Positions 3,719-13,609 of a DNA stretch of 64,000 nucleotides are shown in pieces (positions within the stretch are counted from its first letter, which is position 1; every line of letters begins with the position of its first letter). The DNA comes from Methanosarcina sp. 2.H.T.1A.6 (GTDB lineage: Archaea; Halobacteriota; Methanosarcinia; Methanosarcinales; Methanosarcinaceae). The DNA lies in assembly GCF_000979455.1 (NCBI RefSeq), contig NZ_JJOY01000049.1:1-64000 (forward strand), given 5' to 3'. The notes beneath the pieces are model-generated. The model did not search any database. It saw only the letters and a list, made by a program, of their open reading frames with translations, and was not told the origin of the DNA. A program made the translations under genes and the position numbers.

Positions 3719-4978
3719 ATGTCAAAAAAAACTCCATCTATTGACACCAAGAACCTTACAGCAGTCCAGCTCATGGAGCTCGACTCCTGCACCCGCTGCG
3801 GTGAATGTGTAAAATGGTGTCCAACTTACGCTGCTTCCGGCGAGAAGCCCGGGTTAGCTCCCAGGGACAAGATCCTGCGCTGGAGACAGTTCATGAACAA
3901 GTCCTACGGGCTTAAAGCAAAGCTGTTCGGCCCTACGGAAATCCCCCAGTCCGAACTTGAAGAATTCAAAGACGATGTACACGGCTGTACCACCTGTGGT
4001 ATCTGTGCAACTGTTTGTGAATCAGGTATCAACACTGTGGAACTCTGGGAATCCATGAGGACAAACCTCGTCAAGAAAGGCATCGGTCCCTTCGGAAAGC
4101 AGGGCATGTTCCCTAAACTTATCGGGCAGTACCACAACCCTTACCTCCTTGACCAGAAAGACAGGCTTGCCTGGGTCCCCGAAGACGTTAAGATTGCAGA
4201 CAAGGCAAACATCGTCTACTTCACCGGCTGTACTGCAGGATACAAGCAGCTCGCTCTGGCTTTTGCCACCTCCCGTGTGCTGAATAAGCTGGGCATCGAG
4301 TTCGCCATGCTCGGGGAAGAAGAATGGTGCTGCGGCTCCGCCCTTATCAGGACCGGACAGGTCCATGTCAATGACGTGGCCAGGGAAACTGCAAGGCACA
4401 ATGTAGAAGCCATTAAGGCAAAGGGTGCCACAAAGGTCCTCTATGCATGTGCAGGCTGCTTCCGTGCCTCCAAGGTCGACTGGCCGAGGCTTCTCGGAGA
4501 AGAACTGCCTTTTGAGGTAGTCCACATCACAGAGTTCCTTGCAGATTTGATCAAGAAGGACAAAGTTAAATGGGAAAAATCCATTGACAAGACCATTACA
4601 TACCACGACCCCTGCCACCTTGGCCGCCACGTAGGTGTCTACGATGCTCCCAGGTTTGTGCTTGAACACATCCCGGGTGTTAAGTTTGTAGAAATGGACA
4701 GGGTCAAGGAATTCCAGCGCTGCTGTGGAGCTGGCGGTGGTGTGAAGGCAGGTCTCCCCGATCTTGCCCTCGGTGTTGCCGAATCCCGCGTTAAGGATGC
4801 CCTTGAAACCAACGCAGACATCCTCTCAAGCTCATGCCCCTTCTGTAAGAGGAACCTCATGGACGGCCGTGACTCCCTCAAAGCCGACATCGAGGTTGAG
4901 GACGTAATTGTACTGGTTGCACAGGCCCTCGGTCTCAGTGTAGAAGAACCCAAAAAGGAAGCGCCCAAAAAGGCTTGA
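3719..4978 (+). CDS. hdrD: CoB-CoM heterodisulfide reductase, catalytic subunit HdrD
   Basis: A 419-residue protein with two N-terminal [4Fe-4S] motifs ([12 protein letters not shown] near residues 23-34 and [12 protein letters not shown] near 91-102). Two C-terminal CCG domains follow: [10 protein letters not shown] with CAGCF, and CCGAGGG with CPFC. In the family these CCG motifs bind the noncubane clusters at which the CoM-S-S-CoB heterodisulfide is reduced. HdrD is a fusion-like equivalent of the HdrC and HdrB subunits of hydrogenotrophic methanogens. It acts at the cytoplasmic face bound to HdrE. It is translated from the same mRNA as hdrE with a GGAGGA site overlapping the hdrE stop. 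A short Lys/Glu/Pro tail ends the protein. Confidence 0.97.
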
Positions 4979-5076
4979 AGGCTGGTTTTTTCCAGCTTTC
5001 TTTATTTCTCTTTTTTGATCCAGTGTCTTATTTTTTATAGTAAAACTTAAATACCGATACCTACTTCCCCTTGAAT

Positions 5077-5712
5077 ATGTATATTCCTTACGAATTTCTC
5101 GGAAAAGTATTCGTGTACCTGATGCTCCTTGCTTTTGTAGGTACCGAGCTTGCCCTTCTCATAGGGGTCTACTCGTTCAAAAAACACAGGATCATTTTTC
5201 CGAGTTTCGTACTGTTCACACTCTACCTTTTCTATTCTCCTGCAAAATGGATCTGCAGAGTTTTCCGGATAAGGGATACCCTTGTTGACGATATTCTCAT
5301 TGATGTCCGGAACGCTGTTATGCACGATGATTTCCTGCACACCAAAGGTAAGAAAATTTTGCTTCTTCCGCAGTGCCTGCGTCACCCTAACTGTAAGGCC
5401 CGCTGCGACCCGGTTTACGGGTATGAGTGTAAGCGCTGTGGGCTCTGTGACATTTCAAAACTCTACGAAGCTGCTGAAAAGTATGGTTTCAGGGTTTTTG
5501 TAGTCCCTGGGGGCAGCTTTGTAAAAAAGATCTTCAAGAAATATAAGCCGGAAGCCTGTCTAGGGGTTGCCTGCTATAATGAACTTGCTGAGAACATGCA
5601 GGCTGTTTCGTTTGTCCCCACTCAGGGAGTCCTTCTCCTCAAGGACGGGTGCTTCAATACGGAAGCAAACGTTGAGGAAATAATTCATAAAATGGAGATG
5701 TGCGATGTATAA
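5077..5712 (+). CDS. DUF116 family membrane-anchored Cys-rich protein (copy 1)
   Basis: A 211-residue protein. Two hydrophobic segments lie in the first 60 residues. The soluble part has a dense cysteine group (CLRHPNC, C-x3-C, CKRCGLC) followed by a VVPGGSFVKKIFKKYKPEACLGVACYNEL section and a late DGCFNTE. This is the DUF116 pattern; the function is unknown, and the cysteines suggest a metal or Fe-S site (inference). An upstream TTG at 5071 is possible, but ATG 5077 lies about 28 nt after an ACTTAAATA box, suiting a leaderless message. It overlaps the next paralogue by 8 nt. Confidence 0.8.
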   Translation: MYIPYEFLGKVFVYLMLLAFVGTELALLIGVYSFKKHRIIFPSFVLFTLYLFYSPAKWICRVFRIRDTLVDDILIDVRNAVMHDDFLHTKGKKILLLPQCLRHPNCKARCDPVYGYECKRCGLCDISKLYEAAEKYGFRVFVVPGGSFVKKIFKKYKPEACLGVACYNELAENMQAVSFVPTQGVLLLKDGCFNTEANVEEIIHKMEMCDV

Positions 5713-6340
5713 CTACATTGGAAAGGCACTGTTTTTTGTCACCATCCTATCCCTTGTCCTTTCAGCCGTAGCCCTGGCTGTCAGCCGCAAGAGCCTCACA
5801 CAAAATGTCTTGCTGGCAGGGTTTTTTGCAAATGTGCTCGACTTCTTTTATTTGCCTCTGAGACATATTTTTCTCAAGTTTTCCGATACCCGTGTTCTGG
5901 ACAAATGGATGTCATCTCTGAAAATCAGAGCCCATGCTTCTGCCTTTGCAAAAACAAAAAAAAGGATTATTCTTGCTCCCCACTGCATGCGAGCTCTTGA
6001 CTGCCCTGCCCATTCTACACAGACAGGTATTCAGTGTAAGTCCTGTGGGAAATGCGTTTTTACTCAGTTAAAGAAAGATGCTGAAAAATACGGGTATAAG
6101 GTTTTCATCCTGACTGGCTCTTCATATGTGAAGAACATACTCAAAATGGAAGCCTCCGATGGTATTCTTCTAATTGCCTGCGATTATGAAATCAATAAAG
6201 TTATGCGTGCCCTCAAAGGCAAAAAAGTGATAACCTACGGAATTACTATGGAAAACGATGGCTGTTTCGGGACTGAAGTGAATTACCAGAAGGTGCTTAA
6301 AGTTTTTGATGATTTTAAAAGTCAATCTAACAGGTTATAA
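5705..6340 (+). CDS. DUF116 family membrane-anchored Cys-rich protein (copy 2)
   Basis: The 211-residue protein is a tandem paralogue of the preceding gene. It has the same two-helix N-terminus, the C-x4-C plus CKSCGKC cluster (around residues 92-119), the TGSSYVKNILK block and an ending NDGCFGTEVNYQKV. It keeps the CxxC elements but loses the GVACYNEL cysteine (replaced by LIACDYEI). The start ATG overlaps the stop of copy 1, so the two are translationally coupled and probably form a complex or heterodimer (inference). Function unknown. Confidence 0.8.
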   Translation: MYNYIGKALFFVTILSLVLSAVALAVSRKSLTQNVLLAGFFANVLDFFYLPLRHIFLKFSDTRVLDKWMSSLKIRAHASAFAKTKKRIILAPHCMRALDCPAHSTQTGIQCKSCGKCVFTQLKKDAEKYGYKVFILTGSSYVKNILKMEASDGILLIACDYEINKVMRALKGKKVITYGITMENDGCFGTEVNYQKVLKVFDDFKSQSNRL

Positions 6341-6516
6341 GATACGTCAATGTTTTCTCCGACGGTTCTCTTTTTTTTATACTTATTTCCTATTTTTTCT
6401 TCTTTTTTCCCGACTCAATCGCAATTTTGAATTAATATCAACACTTTAAATTAGCTCCTTATTTAATATAAGTGAAGTTCAGATAATTTCTGGATACTTT
6501 TGAAGGTGCTACTTTC

Positions 6517-7641
6517 ATGTATGACGTAATCATCGTAGGTGGTGGCCCTTCCGGAGCCTCGGCCGGAAGAAGGGCGGGAAAACTTGGTCTCAAGACACTG
6601 CTGCTTGAAAAAGAGGAATTTCCCAGGTACAAACCCTGTGGAGGAGGGCTTTCGAAACATGCTATTTCGTTCCTTGATTTCGAGCTCTCTGAGGATGTTA
6701 TTGAGTGGGAAGTCACAGGGGCAAGAGTCTCTTTCAAGGGGCAGACAGTTGAAGCACACAAAGACCACTCCCTTTGCACTATGGTCTCCAGGGATGTTTT
6801 TGATAACCTCCTGCTTGATAAAGCAAAGGAGAGCGGAGCTGAAGTCCACACCGGGGAAAAGGTCTTCCAATTTATGGAAAATCCTGAGTTTGTGGAGATC
6901 ACGACAGAAAAAGGAACCTATCAGGCAAGGTTTGCCATTATCGCTGAAGGGGCGCATGGGCTTCTCAAGACCTGTGTAAGACCTGTCGATAGTAATGAAG
7001 AGTGTGGAATCTGTGTGGTTACCGAAGTTCCAGCCAGCGAAGAGGAAATCGAAAAAAGGAGCGGTAAAACCGTTGATATGTGTTTCGGAGTGGCTGGCGG
7101 TGGATACGGCTGGATTTTCCCTCACAGGACTTATTATTCAGTTGGAGTCGGAGGACTCATTAAGGACCTTCCTCACCCTAAGGAAACTATGCTTGAGTTC
7201 CTGAAAGATAATGGTTTTACCGGCGATTACAAATTAAAAGGGCACAAAATCCCACTGGGCGGGGTTAAGAGAAAGATCACTGGCTCAAGGGTCCTTTTGA
7301 GCGGGGATGCCGCAGGATTTGTAGATGCCTTTTCAGGCGAGGGGCTTGCTTATGCCATAAGTTCAGGGCAGTTTGCTGCTGAAGCGATTGCCGGAATTTG
7401 CCGGTGTGATGGGAATCTCAAAGATTTGAGCAGATACGAGTCCCTCTGCCAGGCAGAGTTTGGAACTCATCTTAAGTATTCACTTATGTTTTCCAGGATA
7501 ATGCATCGTTTCCCTACCCAATCATTTAAAATCTTTTCATCAAGTGAAAAAATGGTTGATAAATATCTTGAAGTTGTGGATTTTAGTATTACTTATAAGG
7601 AGTATCTTCGCTGGTCCGTTTTGAATTTTAAACTCAGGTAA
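6517..7641 (+). CDS. Geranylgeranyl reductase family flavoprotein (copy 1)
   Basis: A 374-residue protein opening with the FAD Rossmann motif DVIIVGGGPSGASAGRRAG, then the family FPRYKPCGGGL segment and the second FAD motif LLSGDAAGFVDAFSGEGLAYA (about residues 264-284). Members reduce the double bonds of geranylgeranyl chains, including archaeal membrane lipids (digeranylgeranylglycerophospholipid) and polyprenyl cofactors such as methanophenazine precursors; which substrate applies here cannot be read from sequence. A TATA-like TATTTAATATAAG lies near 6459-6471. A close paralogue follows 194 bp downstream. Confidence 0.85.
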   Translation: MYDVIIVGGGPSGASAGRRAGKLGLKTLLLEKEEFPRYKPCGGGLSKHAISFLDFELSEDVIEWEVTGARVSFKGQTVEAHKDHSLCTMVSRDVFDNLLLDKAKESGAEVHTGEKVFQFMENPEFVEITTEKGTYQARFAIIAEGAHGLLKTCVRPVDSNEECGICVVTEVPASEEEIEKRSGKTVDMCFGVAGGGYGWIFPHRTYYSVGVGGLIKDLPHPKETMLEFLKDNGFTGDYKLKGHKIPLGGVKRKITGSRVLLSGDAAGFVDAFSGEGLAYAISSGQFAAEAIAGICRCDGNLKDLSRYESLCQAEFGTHLKYSLMFSRIMHRFPTQSFKIFSSSEKMVDKYLEVVDFSITYKEYLRWSVLNFKLR

Positions 7642-7835
7642 TCAATAATAGGGGATTTTCAAAAATAAGCCGGGATTTTCCAGGGCACTCAAGCTTTTAT
7701 TGGAGATCCCCTTCTGATTCTCTTTTTCCTCTATCTTTTTATTGTTCCAGCATCAATCTACTTATGGGGTAAACCATTCATTTGAGGCTGTCTGTTCAAG
7801 GCATGCCTCTTCTCCATAAGCAGGGGGTCTTGAGC

Positions 7836-9005
7836 ATGTATGATCTGATTATAGTGGGTGGAGGGCCTTCGGGAGCTTCTGCCGGAAGAGCAGCTGGAAA
7901 AGCAGGAATTTCAACCCTCCTGCTTGAGAAAGAATATTTTCCGAGGTATAAGCCCTGCGGAGGGGCTCTATCCCCTTATGCTTTATCCTGCCTGGATTTC
8001 AAACTCCCCGAGTCCGTAGTCGAGAGGGATATTTCAAAGATAAGGATTCATTTCAGGGAGCACTGTACTGAAAGGCAAACCCGTTCAAGGTTAGCTTTGC
8101 TGGTCTCCAGAAAGGTCTTTGACAATTTCCTGCTTGATAAAGCCAGGGAGACTGGAATTGAGGTCCACTTCGGGGAAAAGGTGCTGGACTGCGAGGAAAG
8201 AGAAGAATACGTTGAGGTTAAGACTTTGCAGAACACTTACCTTGCCAAGTTTGTCCTTATTGCGGAAGGCTCCGGAGGCATGCTTAAGTATAAAGTAAGG
8301 CCGCAGAGAGACCGGAGAACGGAATATGGGCTTGCCCTTGTTTCGGAAGTTCCTGAAGATGACGAGGTGATAAGGAATCGGTTTCCCGGTGTAATAGACA
8401 TTCATTTCGGGACTGCACCTGGGGGATACGGCTGGATTTTCCCTCATGCAGGGTACTATTCCGTGGGAGTCACGGGCACAGCTGAATATCTGAAGCATCC
8501 GAAGAAGGTAATGCAGGATTTTTTGCGGGCAAACGGTTTTTCAGGAGAATTGCAGGTCAGTTCCCATATTATCCCGGTAGGAGGGATAAAACGAAAAACC
8601 ATAAGTTCAAGGGTCCTTCTGAGCGGGGATGCCGCAGGTTTCGTGGACGCCTTCATAGGGGAAGGTATTGCATATGCCATCCGGTCAGGGCAGCTTGCAG
8701 CGGAGAACGTAGCTGATCTTGTGCTTTATGACCGGAAATTGAGCGCCCTTAAAGAGTATGAATCCAGGTGCAGGCAGGAGTTTGGAAACTTCCTTGGCAG
8801 TTCCCTTAAACTGGAAAAGGTTATGCATCGTTTTCCCGAGACCTCTTTCAAACTTGTTCTCAGCAGGAAGGAAATATTGGATAAATATCTGGATGAAGTT
8901 GTATTCAGTAGAAGCCACAAAGACTATGTCAGGTGGTTATTGCTCAATTTCAGTCTGGCTGAGCCCTCCTCCAAAATTAAGTCCACAACTGAACGAAATC
9001 GGTAA
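7836..9005 (+). CDS. Geranylgeranyl reductase family flavoprotein (copy 2)
   Basis: The 389-residue paralogue of the preceding gene has MYDLIIVGGGPSGASAGRAAG, FPRYKPCGGAL and LLSGDAAGFVDAFIGEG in the same places, and about 15 extra residues at the C-terminus. I chose ATG 7836 over the upstream TTG at 7782 because it aligns with the start of copy 1 and follows a GGGGGT at about 8 nt. The two copies have diverged clearly, which suggests different prenyl substrates rather than a recent duplication (inference). Confidence 0.85.
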   Translation: MYDLIIVGGGPSGASAGRAAGKAGISTLLLEKEYFPRYKPCGGALSPYALSCLDFKLPESVVERDISKIRIHFREHCTERQTRSRLALLVSRKVFDNFLLDKARETGIEVHFGEKVLDCEEREEYVEVKTLQNTYLAKFVLIAEGSGGMLKYKVRPQRDRRTEYGLALVSEVPEDDEVIRNRFPGVIDIHFGTAPGGYGWIFPHAGYYSVGVTGTAEYLKHPKKVMQDFLRANGFSGELQVSSHIIPVGGIKRKTISSRVLLSGDAAGFVDAFIGEGIAYAIRSGQLAAENVADLVLYDRKLSALKEYESRCRQEFGNFLGSSLKLEKVMHRFPETSFKLVLSRKEILDKYLDEVVFSRSHKDYVRWLLLNFSLAEPSSKIKSTTERNR

Positions 9006-9960: not shown

Positions 9961-11100
9961 ATGAGTGATTGTCTATTTGATTTGCATATTGGATATGTCC
10001 GTTTTAGAAATCCCATTGCACTGGCGCCAATGGCAGGAATTGTCGACAGCGCTTTTGCCAACCAGTATGCAGGTGATGCCGGGCTGGTAGTGCTTGGAGC
10101 CTTCAATCTTGATGAAGGATCTATTGCAGTTGCATCAGAGCTCGTAGCCAGAGGTAGAAAAGAGTTCATCTCCGATGAACCTCTGGAGCTTATAAAAAAG
10201 GAAATCCGGGCAGTAAACTCGGGCAGTGCTGTTGCAGTAAACGTCAGAAGCACCACCCTTGAGCCTTTAATTGAAGCTGCTAAAATTGTAAAGGAAGAAG
10301 GGGCAATCCTTGAGTTAAACGCCCACTGCAAGCAGCCTGAAATGCTTGAGGCAGGCATCGGAGAAGCCCTTTTGCATGACCTCCCAAGGCTTTCTGCCTG
10401 GATAAAGGCAATAAAGGAAACCGGAGTCGTGCTTTCCGTAAAGGTACGGGCAAATGTGGTGAATGATGTAAAACTTGCCAGGCTTATTGATAAGGCTGGG
10501 GCTGATATCATCCATGTAGATTCCATGCTCGAAAAGTTTGGAGCCGACCTTGATGCGATCACAAGTTACAGGGACGCTACAAGGCTCTTCCTTATAGGCA
10601 ACAACTCGGTTACTGACTTTGCCACGGCAAAGGACATGTTTTCCCGAGGTGCTGACATGGTCTCTGTTGCGAGAGGCGCCATGGAAAACCCTGGATTGAT
10701 AAAGGAACTTGTAGAGAGTGTCAGTTCGTATCAGCAGTCAATAGGCTGGTATAATGCTCCCAAGCACGTTTGCAGTGAAGGGGACTTCAGGGCTCTGGCT
10801 TTCTGCTGCCTTCCGGTAAAACCCTGCCCTGTGCATGCGAAATTCCGAAAGCTGGGATACACTGCCGAAGAGTTCGCCCGGACAAAAATGGAATTTGCCA
10901 GAGGCACAATGCTCGAGTACGGGGAGGATACCTGTTTCGGCAGCCTTGTCTGGTGCTGTAAAATTACAAAGCCCTGCTGGATCAGGAACGGTGTACTGAA
11001 TACACTTAACCTCTCTGATGCGGAGTACATGAAACTTAAGGAGCAGCTGGCAAAACACGTCCTTGATCATGCCAGGATTCCGGTAAATGAATCCCAATAA
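9961..11100 (+). CDS. Methanogenesis marker 9-like, DUS/DHOD-fold flavoprotein with Cys-rich C-terminal domain
   Basis: This 379-residue protein has two parts. Residues 1 to about 255 form a TIM-barrel like tRNA-dihydrouridine synthases and dihydroorotate dehydrogenases: NPIALAPMAGIVDSAFA at the start, ELNAHCKQPEM, SVKVRANV, and a phosphate-binding end SRGADMVSVARGA. The last 110 residues carry many cysteines (CSEGDFRALAFCCLPVKPC, DTCFGSLVWCCKITKPC). This is the pattern I recall for methanogenesis marker protein 9, conserved across methanogens with unknown function; a flavin plus Fe-S redox role is inferred. It overlaps the next gene by 14 nt, so the cluster is co-translated. Confidence 0.7.
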   Translation: MSDCLFDLHIGYVRFRNPIALAPMAGIVDSAFANQYAGDAGLVVLGAFNLDEGSIAVASELVARGRKEFISDEPLELIKKEIRAVNSGSAVAVNVRSTTLEPLIEAAKIVKEEGAILELNAHCKQPEMLEAGIGEALLHDLPRLSAWIKAIKETGVVLSVKVRANVVNDVKLARLIDKAGADIIHVDSMLEKFGADLDAITSYRDATRLFLIGNNSVTDFATAKDMFSRGADMVSVARGAMENPGLIKELVESVSSYQQSIGWYNAPKHVCSEGDFRALAFCCLPVKPCPVHAKFRKLGYTAEEFARTKMEFARGTMLEYGEDTCFGSLVWCCKITKPCWIRNGVLNTLNLSDAEYMKLKEQLAKHVLDHARIPVNESQ

Positions 11101-12133
11101 CACTGCTTTCTCCTGTCATATCCCTGAATTGGTGGAGGATTCCCGAACCTCAAGCCTGATTGCACGCCGTGCACAGCTTGCTATGTTGCTTGAGGTCTCA
11201 GCCTCTCCAAAACCAGGGAACGTTGATAGGGAACATAATTATCCTGATACGTGTTTTGAGCATTTTGTAGCTTCTTCAGTTGCCGTCTATCCTGTCTTTG
11301 AGCTTGCTGCAAGGAGTAAAGACAGTATAGGGGCACTTCTCAGGAGTGCGGTTTGCGAAAGCTCTGCTTGGCAGCAGGGAGGAAATACACATTTTGGCGC
11401 TTTTTTACTCCTGATTCCGCTGGCAATGGCTGCAGGTAAAATCTCCAGAGAACCTCCCCACTCCGGGGAAGCAGGTTTCCGGCTTGAAGCCGGGGAATTT
11501 GAGAGTCTTGCTGCCCGCGCCCATAATTTTGTCCGTGCAACGAACTGCGAAGACGCTGTTGAGTTCTACAGGGCTTTCGGGCATGCAGGAGTCAGGGTAA
11601 ATAGTGTGGAAGAATTCGATCTTGAAGACTCTGAATCAACTGCCGATCTCAGGAAACAGAACATTACCCTTTACGATCTTATGGAAATTGCCAGAGGGTA
11701 TGACCTGATCGCAAATGAGTGGACCTCAGGTTTCGGGCGCTGCCTTGAGGGAGCAAAAAGTATTCTTGAGTTCATGCAGGCACGAAACTGTGGGGCAGAA
11801 GCCTTTATCGGAGGCTCAGTTTCCAGCTGTTCGGGCACAGGAATCAACGAGGCTGTAGTGTATACTTTCCTGAAACTGCTTTCCAGGCACAGGGATACCT
11901 TCATCCAGACCAAGTTCGATATTGAAACTGCAGATTATGTTTCTTCCAGAGCAGGTGAGATCCTTTCAAGCTGGGAAACTTCAGGGAAAACCGCCAGGGA
12001 CTTTGCATCCATCCTTCCTGCAGTACAGGAGTTTGACTCCGAGCTTCTGAAAAAAAGGATCAATCCGGGCTCTACGGCAGATATTATTATTGCAGGGCTT
12101 TTTATTGCCCTTCTTGGAGGACTACGTTTTTGA
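11087..12133 (+). CDS. CitG-like protein (triphosphoribosyl-dephospho-CoA synthase family)
   Basis: The 348-residue protein has the CitG/MdcB signature: EVSASPKPGNVDR, DTCFEHFVASSVAV, then QQGGNTHFGAFLLLIPLA (about residues 94-111) and an EWTSGF element. Bacterial CitG makes the 2'-(5''-triphosphoribosyl)-dephospho-CoA prosthetic group of citrate lyase, but no citrate or malonate lyase is present here. Archaeal homologues therefore probably ribosylate another molecule. The genes on either side (MMP9-like, DUF447, DmrX) point to a methanopterin-type cofactor (inference). It overlaps both neighbours (14 nt upstream, 4 nt downstream). Confidence 0.8.
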   Translation: MNPNNTAFSCHIPELVEDSRTSSLIARRAQLAMLLEVSASPKPGNVDREHNYPDTCFEHFVASSVAVYPVFELAARSKDSIGALLRSAVCESSAWQQGGNTHFGAFLLLIPLAMAAGKISREPPHSGEAGFRLEAGEFESLAARAHNFVRATNCEDAVEFYRAFGHAGVRVNSVEEFDLEDSESTADLRKQNITLYDLMEIARGYDLIANEWTSGFGRCLEGAKSILEFMQARNCGAEAFIGGSVSSCSGTGINEAVVYTFLKLLSRHRDTFIQTKFDIETADYVSSRAGEILSSWETSGKTARDFASILPAVQEFDSELLKKRINPGSTADIIIAGLFIALLGGLRF

Positions 12134-12759
12134 AAAAATATGATGAATCCGGAGATATCTGTAAACCAGATCTCGACCTCTCTGAATACGGGATTCTGGA
12201 AGGTATCTCTGAGACAATCGTAAGTACGGGGCTTGATAATCCCAATGCGGCTCCTATCGGAATTATCAGGAAAAACCAGAAGACTTTTGTCCGCATTTTC
12301 AAAGGCAGCCATACAGGGGAAAACCTGGTCCGGGAAGGGGTTCTCGTAGCAAACGTGGTATATGACCCTCTGCTCCTCGTACGTTCCACCTTCTTCGACA
12401 TTGAATCTTCCGAATTTGATTTTGTGGACATTGGCGGGAAAATGTTTCCTGTCCTGAAATCGGCCATTTCCTGGGTAGCTTTCAGGTGCACCAACCTCAA
12501 AGATACGGAACAGACTGTGATATCCGACCTCGTCCCGCTCGGGGCGGGCTTTTTTGAGGCGAACAGGAGAGCGATCCCGACCCCTAACCGCGGCTTCAAT
12601 GCCGTGCTTGAGGCTACAGTTCATGCAACCCGCTATCAGCTTTCGGGGGATGAAAAATACCTTGAATGGATCCGACACTATGAGACCCTTGCTTCCAAAT
12701 GCGGGGGAGATAATGAAAAGAAAGCTATGAAACTGCTTTATGAAGTTCTGGGGATTTGA
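12130..12759 (+). CDS. DUF447 family protein
   Basis: The 209-residue protein begins with a flavin-reductase-like barrel (EGISETIVSTGLDNPNAAPIG, then FKGSHTGENLVREGVLVANVV), typical of DUF447. It ends with a helical region containing NRRAIPTPNRGFNAVLEATVHATRY. Function is unknown; the barrel could bind a flavin or pterin. I recall DUF447 and CitG-like genes occurring together both in methanogens and in methylotrophic bacteria that use tetrahydromethanopterin, which supports a shared cofactor role. The ATGA overlap with the CitG-like gene indicates translational coupling. Confidence 0.75.
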   Translation: MKKYDESGDICKPDLDLSEYGILEGISETIVSTGLDNPNAAPIGIIRKNQKTFVRIFKGSHTGENLVREGVLVANVVYDPLLLVRSTFFDIESSEFDFVDIGGKMFPVLKSAISWVAFRCTNLKDTEQTVISDLVPLGAGFFEANRRAIPTPNRGFNAVLEATVHATRYQLSGDEKYLEWIRHYETLASKCGGDNEKKAMKLLYEVLGI

Positions 12760-12780
12760 ATTTCTCTCTAACTCCAGATT

Positions 12781-12821
12781 CTTCTCTGATTCTTTTCTGA
12801 TTCTTTTCTGATTCTTTCTGT
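12781..12821. repeat. Short tandem TTCTGATTCTT-type repeat
   Basis: Three to four units close to TTTTCTGATTC follow one another between the DUF447 gene and dmrX; the last copy is shortened. Confidence 0.7.
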
Positions 12822-12889
12822 TCGTTCCCCATTCTAAGTCACGCTTTCTTTAGAAAATTATATTATCCTCTATGGCATGACTTCTGTTC

Positions 12890-13609
12890 ATGAATTTTCA
12901 GAGAATCGCATGGGGAATTACCGGAGCCGGACATTTCCTGGACCGCAGCTACCAGGTATTTAAGGAACTCAAACTCAGAGACTACGAGCTTTCCGTAAAC
13001 ACGTATATTTCCAGGGCAGCTGAAGAGGTGCTCCGGATGTATGGGCTTGAGCAGAAGCTTGTGAAAATCTCGGGAGGAGACTATCTTGAAGAGATTTTTC
13101 GGGAAAGCGAGCAGGGGTCAAGTTCTCCCAAAGTCGGGCGCTTTCTCCTTGACAGGTACGATGCCCTCTTCGTTACGCCTGCAACCTCAAATACAGTCTC
13201 GAAAATCGCCTATGGAATTGCCGATTCCCTTGTAACCAATGCCGTTGCCCAGGCTGTTAAGGGAAGGGTCCCGGTCTATATCGTGCCAGTGGATATTGAA
13301 GGCTCTATCGTATCGGAAATGCCCTACAACATTGACAGGAAACAGTGCCGTCACTGCGAGGACTGTCCCCCGAGGGAAAACTGCCCCCACGAAGCAATAA
13401 CTGAGAAAAACGGTGTCACAGACCAGATAGAACTCCTGAAATGCAAAGGCTGCGGGATCTGCAAGGAATTGTGCTCTTATAATGCCATCAAGGGCGGGCC
13501 TGTTGAAGTCCTGGTCAGGGATGTGGACATGCGCAATGTTGAGATTGTAAAAGAGCTACAGGGAATCACTGTACTTGAAAGCCCGGAAGCCATTCTGGAT
13601 CTTTTCTAA
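12890..13609 (+). CDS. dmrX: Dihydromethanopterin reductase, DmrX type (flavoprotein with ferredoxin domain)
   Basis: The 239-residue protein has an archaeoflavoprotein-like FMN domain: GITGAGHFLDRSY at the N-terminus, then YDALFVTPATSNTVSKIAYGIADSL near 87-111. It ends with two cysteine clusters for [4Fe-4S]: CRHCEDCPPRENCPH (about 153-167) and CKGCGICKELC (about 186-196). This layout matches the characterised Methanosarcina mazei DmrX, which reduces dihydromethanopterin to the tetrahydro form in the last step of cofactor synthesis. A TATA-like AAATTATATTATCC is centred about 28 nt before the ATG, suggesting a leaderless mRNA separate from the genes upstream. Confidence 0.85.
   Translation: MNFQRIAWGITGAGHFLDRSYQVFKELKLRDYELSVNTYISRAAEEVLRMYGLEQKLVKISGGDYLEEIFRESEQGSSSPKVGRFLLDRYDALFVTPATSNTVSKIAYGIADSLVTNAVAQAVKGRVPVYIVPVDIEGSIVSEMPYNIDRKQCRHCEDCPPRENCPHEAITEKNGVTDQIELLKCKGCGICKELCSYNAIKGGPVEVLVRDVDMRNVEIVKELQGITVLESPEAILDLF

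Follow-up and report, generated by a model that had tools for sequence, protein, structure and literature searches.

The window analyzed here, 64,000 nucleotides of contig NZ_JJOY01000049.1 (assembly GCF_000979455.1) from Methanosarcina sp. 2.H.T.1A.6, carries four consecutive open reading frames (ORFs), which encode a TIM-barrel protein with a C-terminal methanogenesis-marker-9 domain (MMP9), a CitG-like protein, a flavoprotein of the DUF447 family, and the dihydromethanopterin reductase DmrX (Table 1). A preliminary description of this locus had suggested a single methanopterin-related unit, in which the first three genes overlap by 14 nt (MMP9-type and CitG-like genes) and 4 nt (CitG-like and DUF447 genes) and DmrX follows 130 nt after the end of DUF447; gene order, coordinates and distances are exact to the base in the ORF list of the window. 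With a probability of about 0.9, the CitG-like and DUF447 proteins belong to the methanopterin pathway, where they are candidates for two enzymes in the synthesis of the non-pterin half.

Table 1. Genes, motifs and intergenic region of the MMP9-CitG-DUF447-DmrX locus (positions in the window).
Feature	Position	Strand	Remarks
Dus-like TIM barrel with C-terminal methanogenesis-marker-9 domain (MMP9)	9961..11100	+	379 aa; TIGR03277, TIGR00736, PF01207
CitG-like protein, putative ATP-dependent (triphospho)ribosyl transferase in methanopterin synthesis	11087..12133	+	348 aa; PF01874
CitG motif PKPGNVDR, residues 41-48	11207..11230	+	alignment; N45 is L in E. coli CitG
CitG motif NTHFG, residues 100-104	11384..11398	+	alignment; N100 and G104 invariant, E. 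coli CitG included
CitG motif PGSTAD, residues 327-332	12065..12082	+	alignment; P, G, A, D invariant, E. coli CitG included
DUF447 FMN-binding split-barrel flavoprotein, proposed pathway reductase	12130..12759	+	209 aa, TTG start; PF04289, PF20766
T-rich intergenic gap DUF447-DmrX, 130 nt	12760..12889	.	TATA-like ttatatta at 12858-12865, judged by eye
DmrX, dihydromethanopterin reductase (acceptor), flavoprotein and ferredoxin-type domain	12890..13609	+	239 aa; TIGR02700

In methanogenesis, and likewise when bacteria oxidize formaldehyde, one-carbon units are carried by methanopterin. The synthesis of its non-pterin half starts with RFAP synthase, which couples ribose to an aminobenzene ring. 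On the way to the finished cofactor, this ribose has to be reduced to an open-chain 1-deoxyribitol and to lose its phosphate, and another ribose is attached in alpha linkage to the 5-OH group of the ribitol; in methanogens this added ribose carries a phosphodiester to hydroxyglutarate. The preliminary description had stated that CitG-like and DUF447 genes co-occur with methanopterin users, and the phyletic profiles of bacteria and archaea bear this out, specifically for RFAP synthase. Of the 14 named genomes used as controls, four have both DUF447 and RFAP synthase (M. jannaschii, H. volcanii, S. acidocaldarius and M. acetivorans), and the other ten have neither; CitG occurs in these four and in Escherichia coli, and Mch in three of the four, Sulfolobus being the exception. 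Within the Halobacteriota, 151 of 158 genomes contain DUF447, and a 67-genome panel, which includes all seven genomes without it, has Mch throughout (67/67), CitG in 63 and RFAP synthase in 64 genomes. The panel genomes without RFAP synthase are three haloarchaea, each 99% complete (G008, G053, G108), in which CitG and DUF447 are missing as well and Mch is kept, the remaining gene absences falling in fragmented genomes. In the family to which these three belong, the presence of RFAP synthase and CitG agrees in 26 of 26 genomes, and DUF447 departs from it in one fragmented genome (Fisher values 7e-5 and 3e-4, relatedness ignored). Occurrence of the pair in organisms without methanopterin, named early on as evidence to the contrary, is encountered on the face of it in haloarchaea and Sulfolobus, but both carry homologues of RFAP synthase, and the haloarchaea without RFAP synthase are also without the pair. 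As an observation apart, the RFAP synthases of several genomes (G042, G007, G017, G027, G055, G043, G003, G023 and G065) reside in ORFs of 513–562 aa, compared with ≈ 325 aa for the family; in several methanogen families an additional domain thus seems to be fused to the enzyme.

The joint loss of the pair and RFAP synthase concerns Halobacterium salinarum and a second genus. Genome G108 is judged to be H. salinarum, or nearly so, because it matches a plasmid gene of strain NRC-1 with 100% identity over 1,824 bp. In a congener (L094), CofD is followed by the TIM barrel, CitG, DUF447 and, further on, asd; in G108 (C7:22423-26629) CofD, TIM barrel and asd are arranged in the same order, with the pair missing from between them. 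Neither CitG nor DUF447 was detected by tblastn in the 2.09 Mb of G108 that the search covered, in accord with whole-genome profile searches, and a close orthologue of the haloarchaeal Mer was likewise not found there (best match 30%).

In bacteria, a Phyllobacterium plasmid (L008) harbors a complete formaldehyde cluster linked to tetrahydromethanopterin (H4MPT), in which the genes of the CitG-like and DUF447 proteins are found together with mch, fae, mptG, afpA, methylofuran genes and fhc. A tblastn survey of 72,556 plasmids with the L008 proteins as queries returned 36 records for the CitG-like protein, 35 for DUF447, 36 for Mch and 44 for RFAP synthase, and comparison of the lists placed all four together in the same 35 bacterial records. 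Outside these 35, the CitG-like protein is present on one Natrinema plasmid, where DUF447 is found too (archaeal query), Mch in one record (Natronorubrum), and RFAP-type matches in two haloarchaeal records as well as in seven records of distant paralogues from rhizobia and Cupriavidus (25–33% identity), these seven being devoid of CitG-like, DUF447 and Mch matches. The rhizobial plasmids NZ_AP023260, NZ_AP017989, NZ_CP050093, NZ_CP071620 and NZ_CP147998 carry RFAP-synthase paralogues of 25–28% identity, with neither Mch nor the CitG-like and DUF447 proteins.

Every gene of the archaeal-like cluster in M. extorquens is essential for growth on methanol (PMC8141765), and for Methylosinus the gene orders mch-orf5-orf7-fae-fae-orf17 and orf19-orf20-afpA-orf21-orf22 have been reported (PMC3615186). 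From the gene order in L008 it appears that orf7 probably is the CitG-like gene and orf19 probably DUF447. The link of the pair to methanopterin is thus not wholly new, its bacterial orthologues, probably orf7 and orf19, lying in a cluster known to be needed for growth on methanol. The methylotroph cluster, which serves the dephospho form of the cofactor (dH4MPT), differs from the Methanosarcina locus in that AfpA or DmrA takes the place of DmrX, and the MMP9-type barrel has no tblastn match in L008. The bacterial cofactor itself is distinguished by lacking only the phosphate and the hydroxyglutarate (PMC8141765); it keeps the ribose, and therefore the same ribosyl step would be needed in bacteria.

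The gene neighborhood was surveyed at 40 loci of Halobacteriota, picked to spread over families and not at random. CitG and DUF447 are adjacent and on one strand in 37 of the 40 loci and in 23 of the 25 families (36 by tblastn, and L077 by profile coordinates). Other Methanosarcinaceae and one further family (L071) share the order MMP9-CitG-DUF447-DmrX, which is not due to chance; a contig scan with a single close query gave four loci, all of them methanosarcinal. A dihydropteroate-synthase-like gene (TIGR00284) is found near this run of genes in L071, and in L068 and L090 the pair is close to DmrX and to a gene of the same type. In the haloarchaeal genus g74 (L080-L083) the order is Mer, CitG, DUF447, RFAP synthase, and in Halobellus (L010:6845-9562) Mer, DUF447, RFAP synthase.

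The CitG-like protein matches profile PF01874 over its full length (255.5 bits, positions 1–284 of 284) and is in this respect, and in its core motifs, a homologue of CitG/MdcB, the ATP:dephospho-CoA triphosphoribosyl transferases (PF01874, TIGR03125, TIGR03132). When 45 archaeal sequences and one bacterial sequence are aligned with E. coli CitG, residues G44, R48, F60, N100, G104, D270, P327, G328, A331 and D332 are invariant, and the core PKPG.V.R, NT..G, D270 and PG..AD is common to the archaeal, bacterial and E. coli proteins; N45 and N326, on the other hand, correspond to L and S in E. coli CitG. The AlphaFold2 model (predicted local distance difference test score, pLDDT, of 89; sequences of plasmid and E. 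coli origin were left out of the alignments for both structure predictions) matches 3h9p, a structure from Archaeoglobus and the only relative that the fold search for distant CitG relatives produced. ADP-ribosylhydrolase ARH3 was discarded as a relative, its E value of ≈ 0.9 in this search being at chance level.

An ordinary CitG, which makes triphosphoribosyl-dephospho-CoA for the carrier protein of citrate lyase or malonate decarboxylase, is what the full-length PF01874 match and the usual automatic annotation would suggest, but such an activity has next to no likelihood here. The usual client of CitG, the carrier protein CitD/MdcC (PF06857), was detected in the E. coli control and in none of the 38 CitG-bearing archaeal genomes, that of the present strain included, and the canonical role was rejected on this ground. 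Furthermore, the scores of 48.8, 47.4 and 37.1 bits fall far below the CitG/MdcB equivalog cut-offs of 272.3, 280 and 282.35 bits, and the gene tracks RFAP synthase instead, with DUF447 as its partner in place of the citX/citDEF genes that accompany citG.

The DUF447 protein comprises both the DUF447_N and the DUF447_C domain. The nearest solved structure is that of its M. mazei orthologue MM1853 (PDB 2nr4; 68% identity over the aligned part), which contains bound FMN, and the family members 2iml and 2ptf are likewise flavin-bound; the descriptions of these three structures and of 3b5m, of the same family, come without an assigned function. By homology to 2nr4, 2ptf and 2iml, the protein is predicted to bind FMN. 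Its AlphaFold2 model (pLDDT 91) has MM1853 and two other flavin-bound structures as best fold matches, followed by flavin-reductase-like proteins.

While membership of the pair in the pathway is strongly supported, the chemistry set out here is a proposal, with each catalytic step inferred. DUF447, with its bound FMN, would open the RFAP-type C-riboside reductively to the deoxyribitol. The CitG-like enzyme would then displace adenine from ATP and transfer a 5-triphosphoribosyl group to the hydroxyl of the ribitol, the inversion producing the alpha link. In methanogens, the triphosphate might drive formation of a phosphodiester with 2-hydroxyglutarate, comparable to the reaction of CitX with the serine of the citrate-lyase carrier protein, and in methylotrophic bacteria it would be hydrolyzed to leave dephospho-H4MPT; DmrX would perform the last reduction. 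It can be rationalized that a CitG with a new acceptor fits the stereochemistry, because CitG moves the triphosphoribosyl group from ATP, a beta-nucleoside, into an alpha-linked product, and ATP as ribosyl donor, loss of adenine and an alpha ribosyl link are accordingly the features predicted to be shared with CitG/MdcB. Within the module, the opening of the C-riboside is most naturally ascribed to DUF447, since this is a two-electron reduction and the protein is expected to bind FMN. Co-occurrence, co-loss, neighborhood, the conserved CitG core, the absent CitG client and the FMN-bound homologues are the observations on which the scheme draws. The ribosyl step from ATP is slightly favored for the CitG-like enzyme, and the reductive opening is only tentatively ascribed to DUF447; that the scheme is right at least in its CitG step has even odds.

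Several points weigh against this interpretation. R. H. White reportedly used phosphoribosyl pyrophosphate (PRPP), not ATP, as ribose donor in work with cell extracts, DUF447 might catalyze a flavin-dependent step of any kind, and the substrate of the pair might be a by-product of the pathway. The joint losses may represent only two events, and three genomes of family f22 possess the pair with RFAP hits below the cut-off (69–80 bits). Haloarchaeal RFAP homologues pass the subfamily cut-off and miss that of the equivalog (175 vs. 328 bits), and haloarchaea have been described as folate users, whose homologues of Mer and of the RFAP-type enzyme function outside methanopterin metabolism (PMC8305020).

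Alternatively, the pair may reside in the methanopterin pathway and catalyze other steps, with the CitG-like protein using PRPP or another donor or adding only the terminal group, and DUF447 being a general flavin reductase that feeds DmrX or methylation enzymes. This is a genuine possibility, if a less favored one: the evidence from co-occurrence and neighborhood applies equally, DUF447 adjoins DmrX in several Methanosarcinaceae and in L071, and its fold search yields many flavin reductases, but the core motifs of the CitG-like protein are typical of an ATP-using family. Feeding DmrX is not the general role of DUF447, because the latter occurs in haloarchaeal loci that have the pair and no DmrX match, and in bacteria that use AfpA. 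A function in another cofactor (F420, methanofuran), or in an RFAP-derived compound that does not carry C1 units, is improbable. Several haloarchaea have the pair downstream of CofD and the TIM barrel, and the methylotroph clusters also contain methylofuran genes; H. salinarum, however, retains CofD without the pair, which makes a role in F420 synthesis unlikely, haloarchaea are to our knowledge not users of methanofuran, and in g74 the pair is located between Mer and RFAP synthase.

The joint presence of an RFAP-type synthase, CitG-like protein and DUF447 in nearly all haloarchaea, the adjacency of Mer in some, and the joint loss in H. salinarum point to an RFAP-derived carrier in most haloarchaea, which stays a proposal because the synthase homologue scores below the equivalog cut-off. 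That methanopterin owes its alpha-ribosyl link to a CitG-family enzyme using ATP and, at the same time, the RFAP synthase/CitG/DUF447 module provides a methanopterin-type carrier for Mer beside folate in most haloarchaea, with H. salinarum among the exceptions, is conceivable and somewhat doubtful as a whole. The proposal calls into question the published position that, in haloarchaea, Mer and the homologues of RFAP synthase function in a folate context alone. The occurrence of Mer in one run with DUF447, the RFAP-synthase homologue and, in g74, CitG is at variance with a folate-only view of haloarchaeal Mer.

According to a review of 2011, about seven proteins of methanopterin synthesis were still unknown (PMC3087415). 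The CitG-like and DUF447 proteins are two candidates for such missing proteins, each with a defined proposed reaction and a candidate role that spans bacteria, most haloarchaea and methanogens. A connection of these genes with dH4MPT may in part have been published already, since PMC6193120 cites a 2005 paper on novel dH4MPT genes obtained by mutagenesis. A literature search, with most subscription journals outside it, found no paper connecting CitG or DUF447 with methanopterin or proposing these reactions.

The suggestion of one unit has to be amended with respect to its first gene. The MMP9-type protein scores above the cut-off of TIGR03277 (180.7 bits, cut-off 96.2), and a homologue is directly upstream of CitG in 22 of the 40 Halobacteriota loci. 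H. salinarum (G108) retains the TIM barrel without CitG-DUF447 and without RFAP synthase, so that the barrel is not tied to the RFAP module; together with the missing match in L008 and a haloarchaeal form that has no MMP9 domain, this excludes MMP9 as an obligate partner, and the gene is linked to the pair loosely, by position alone. The assignment of CitG-like and DUF447 proteins to methanopterin synthesis, in contrast, is upheld by their tracking of RFAP synthase and by neighboring pathway genes. In L009:4145-5895 and L094:8305-10046, the haloarchaeal barrel follows CofD, an enzyme of F420 synthesis; the barrel may be connected with F420 chemistry.

DmrX, with 405.5 bits against a TIGR02700 cut-off of 251.35 and with PF02441 and Fer4 domains, is a clear member of the family of M. 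mazei DmrX, from which nothing notable distinguishes it. DmrX of the TIGR02700 family reduces dihydromethanopterin, as cited in PMC6193120. The gene may have its own promoter, since a T-rich gap with a TATA-like stretch precedes it. Further upstream, positions 3719-9005 of the window contain a conserved block that encodes a TfrB/HdrD-like Fe-S protein, two overlapping DUF116 proteins and two geranylgeranyl-reductase-like flavoproteins. This block sits upstream in most Methanosarcina loci examined, and in locus L067 its first three genes lie directly 5' of MMP9-CitG-DUF447.

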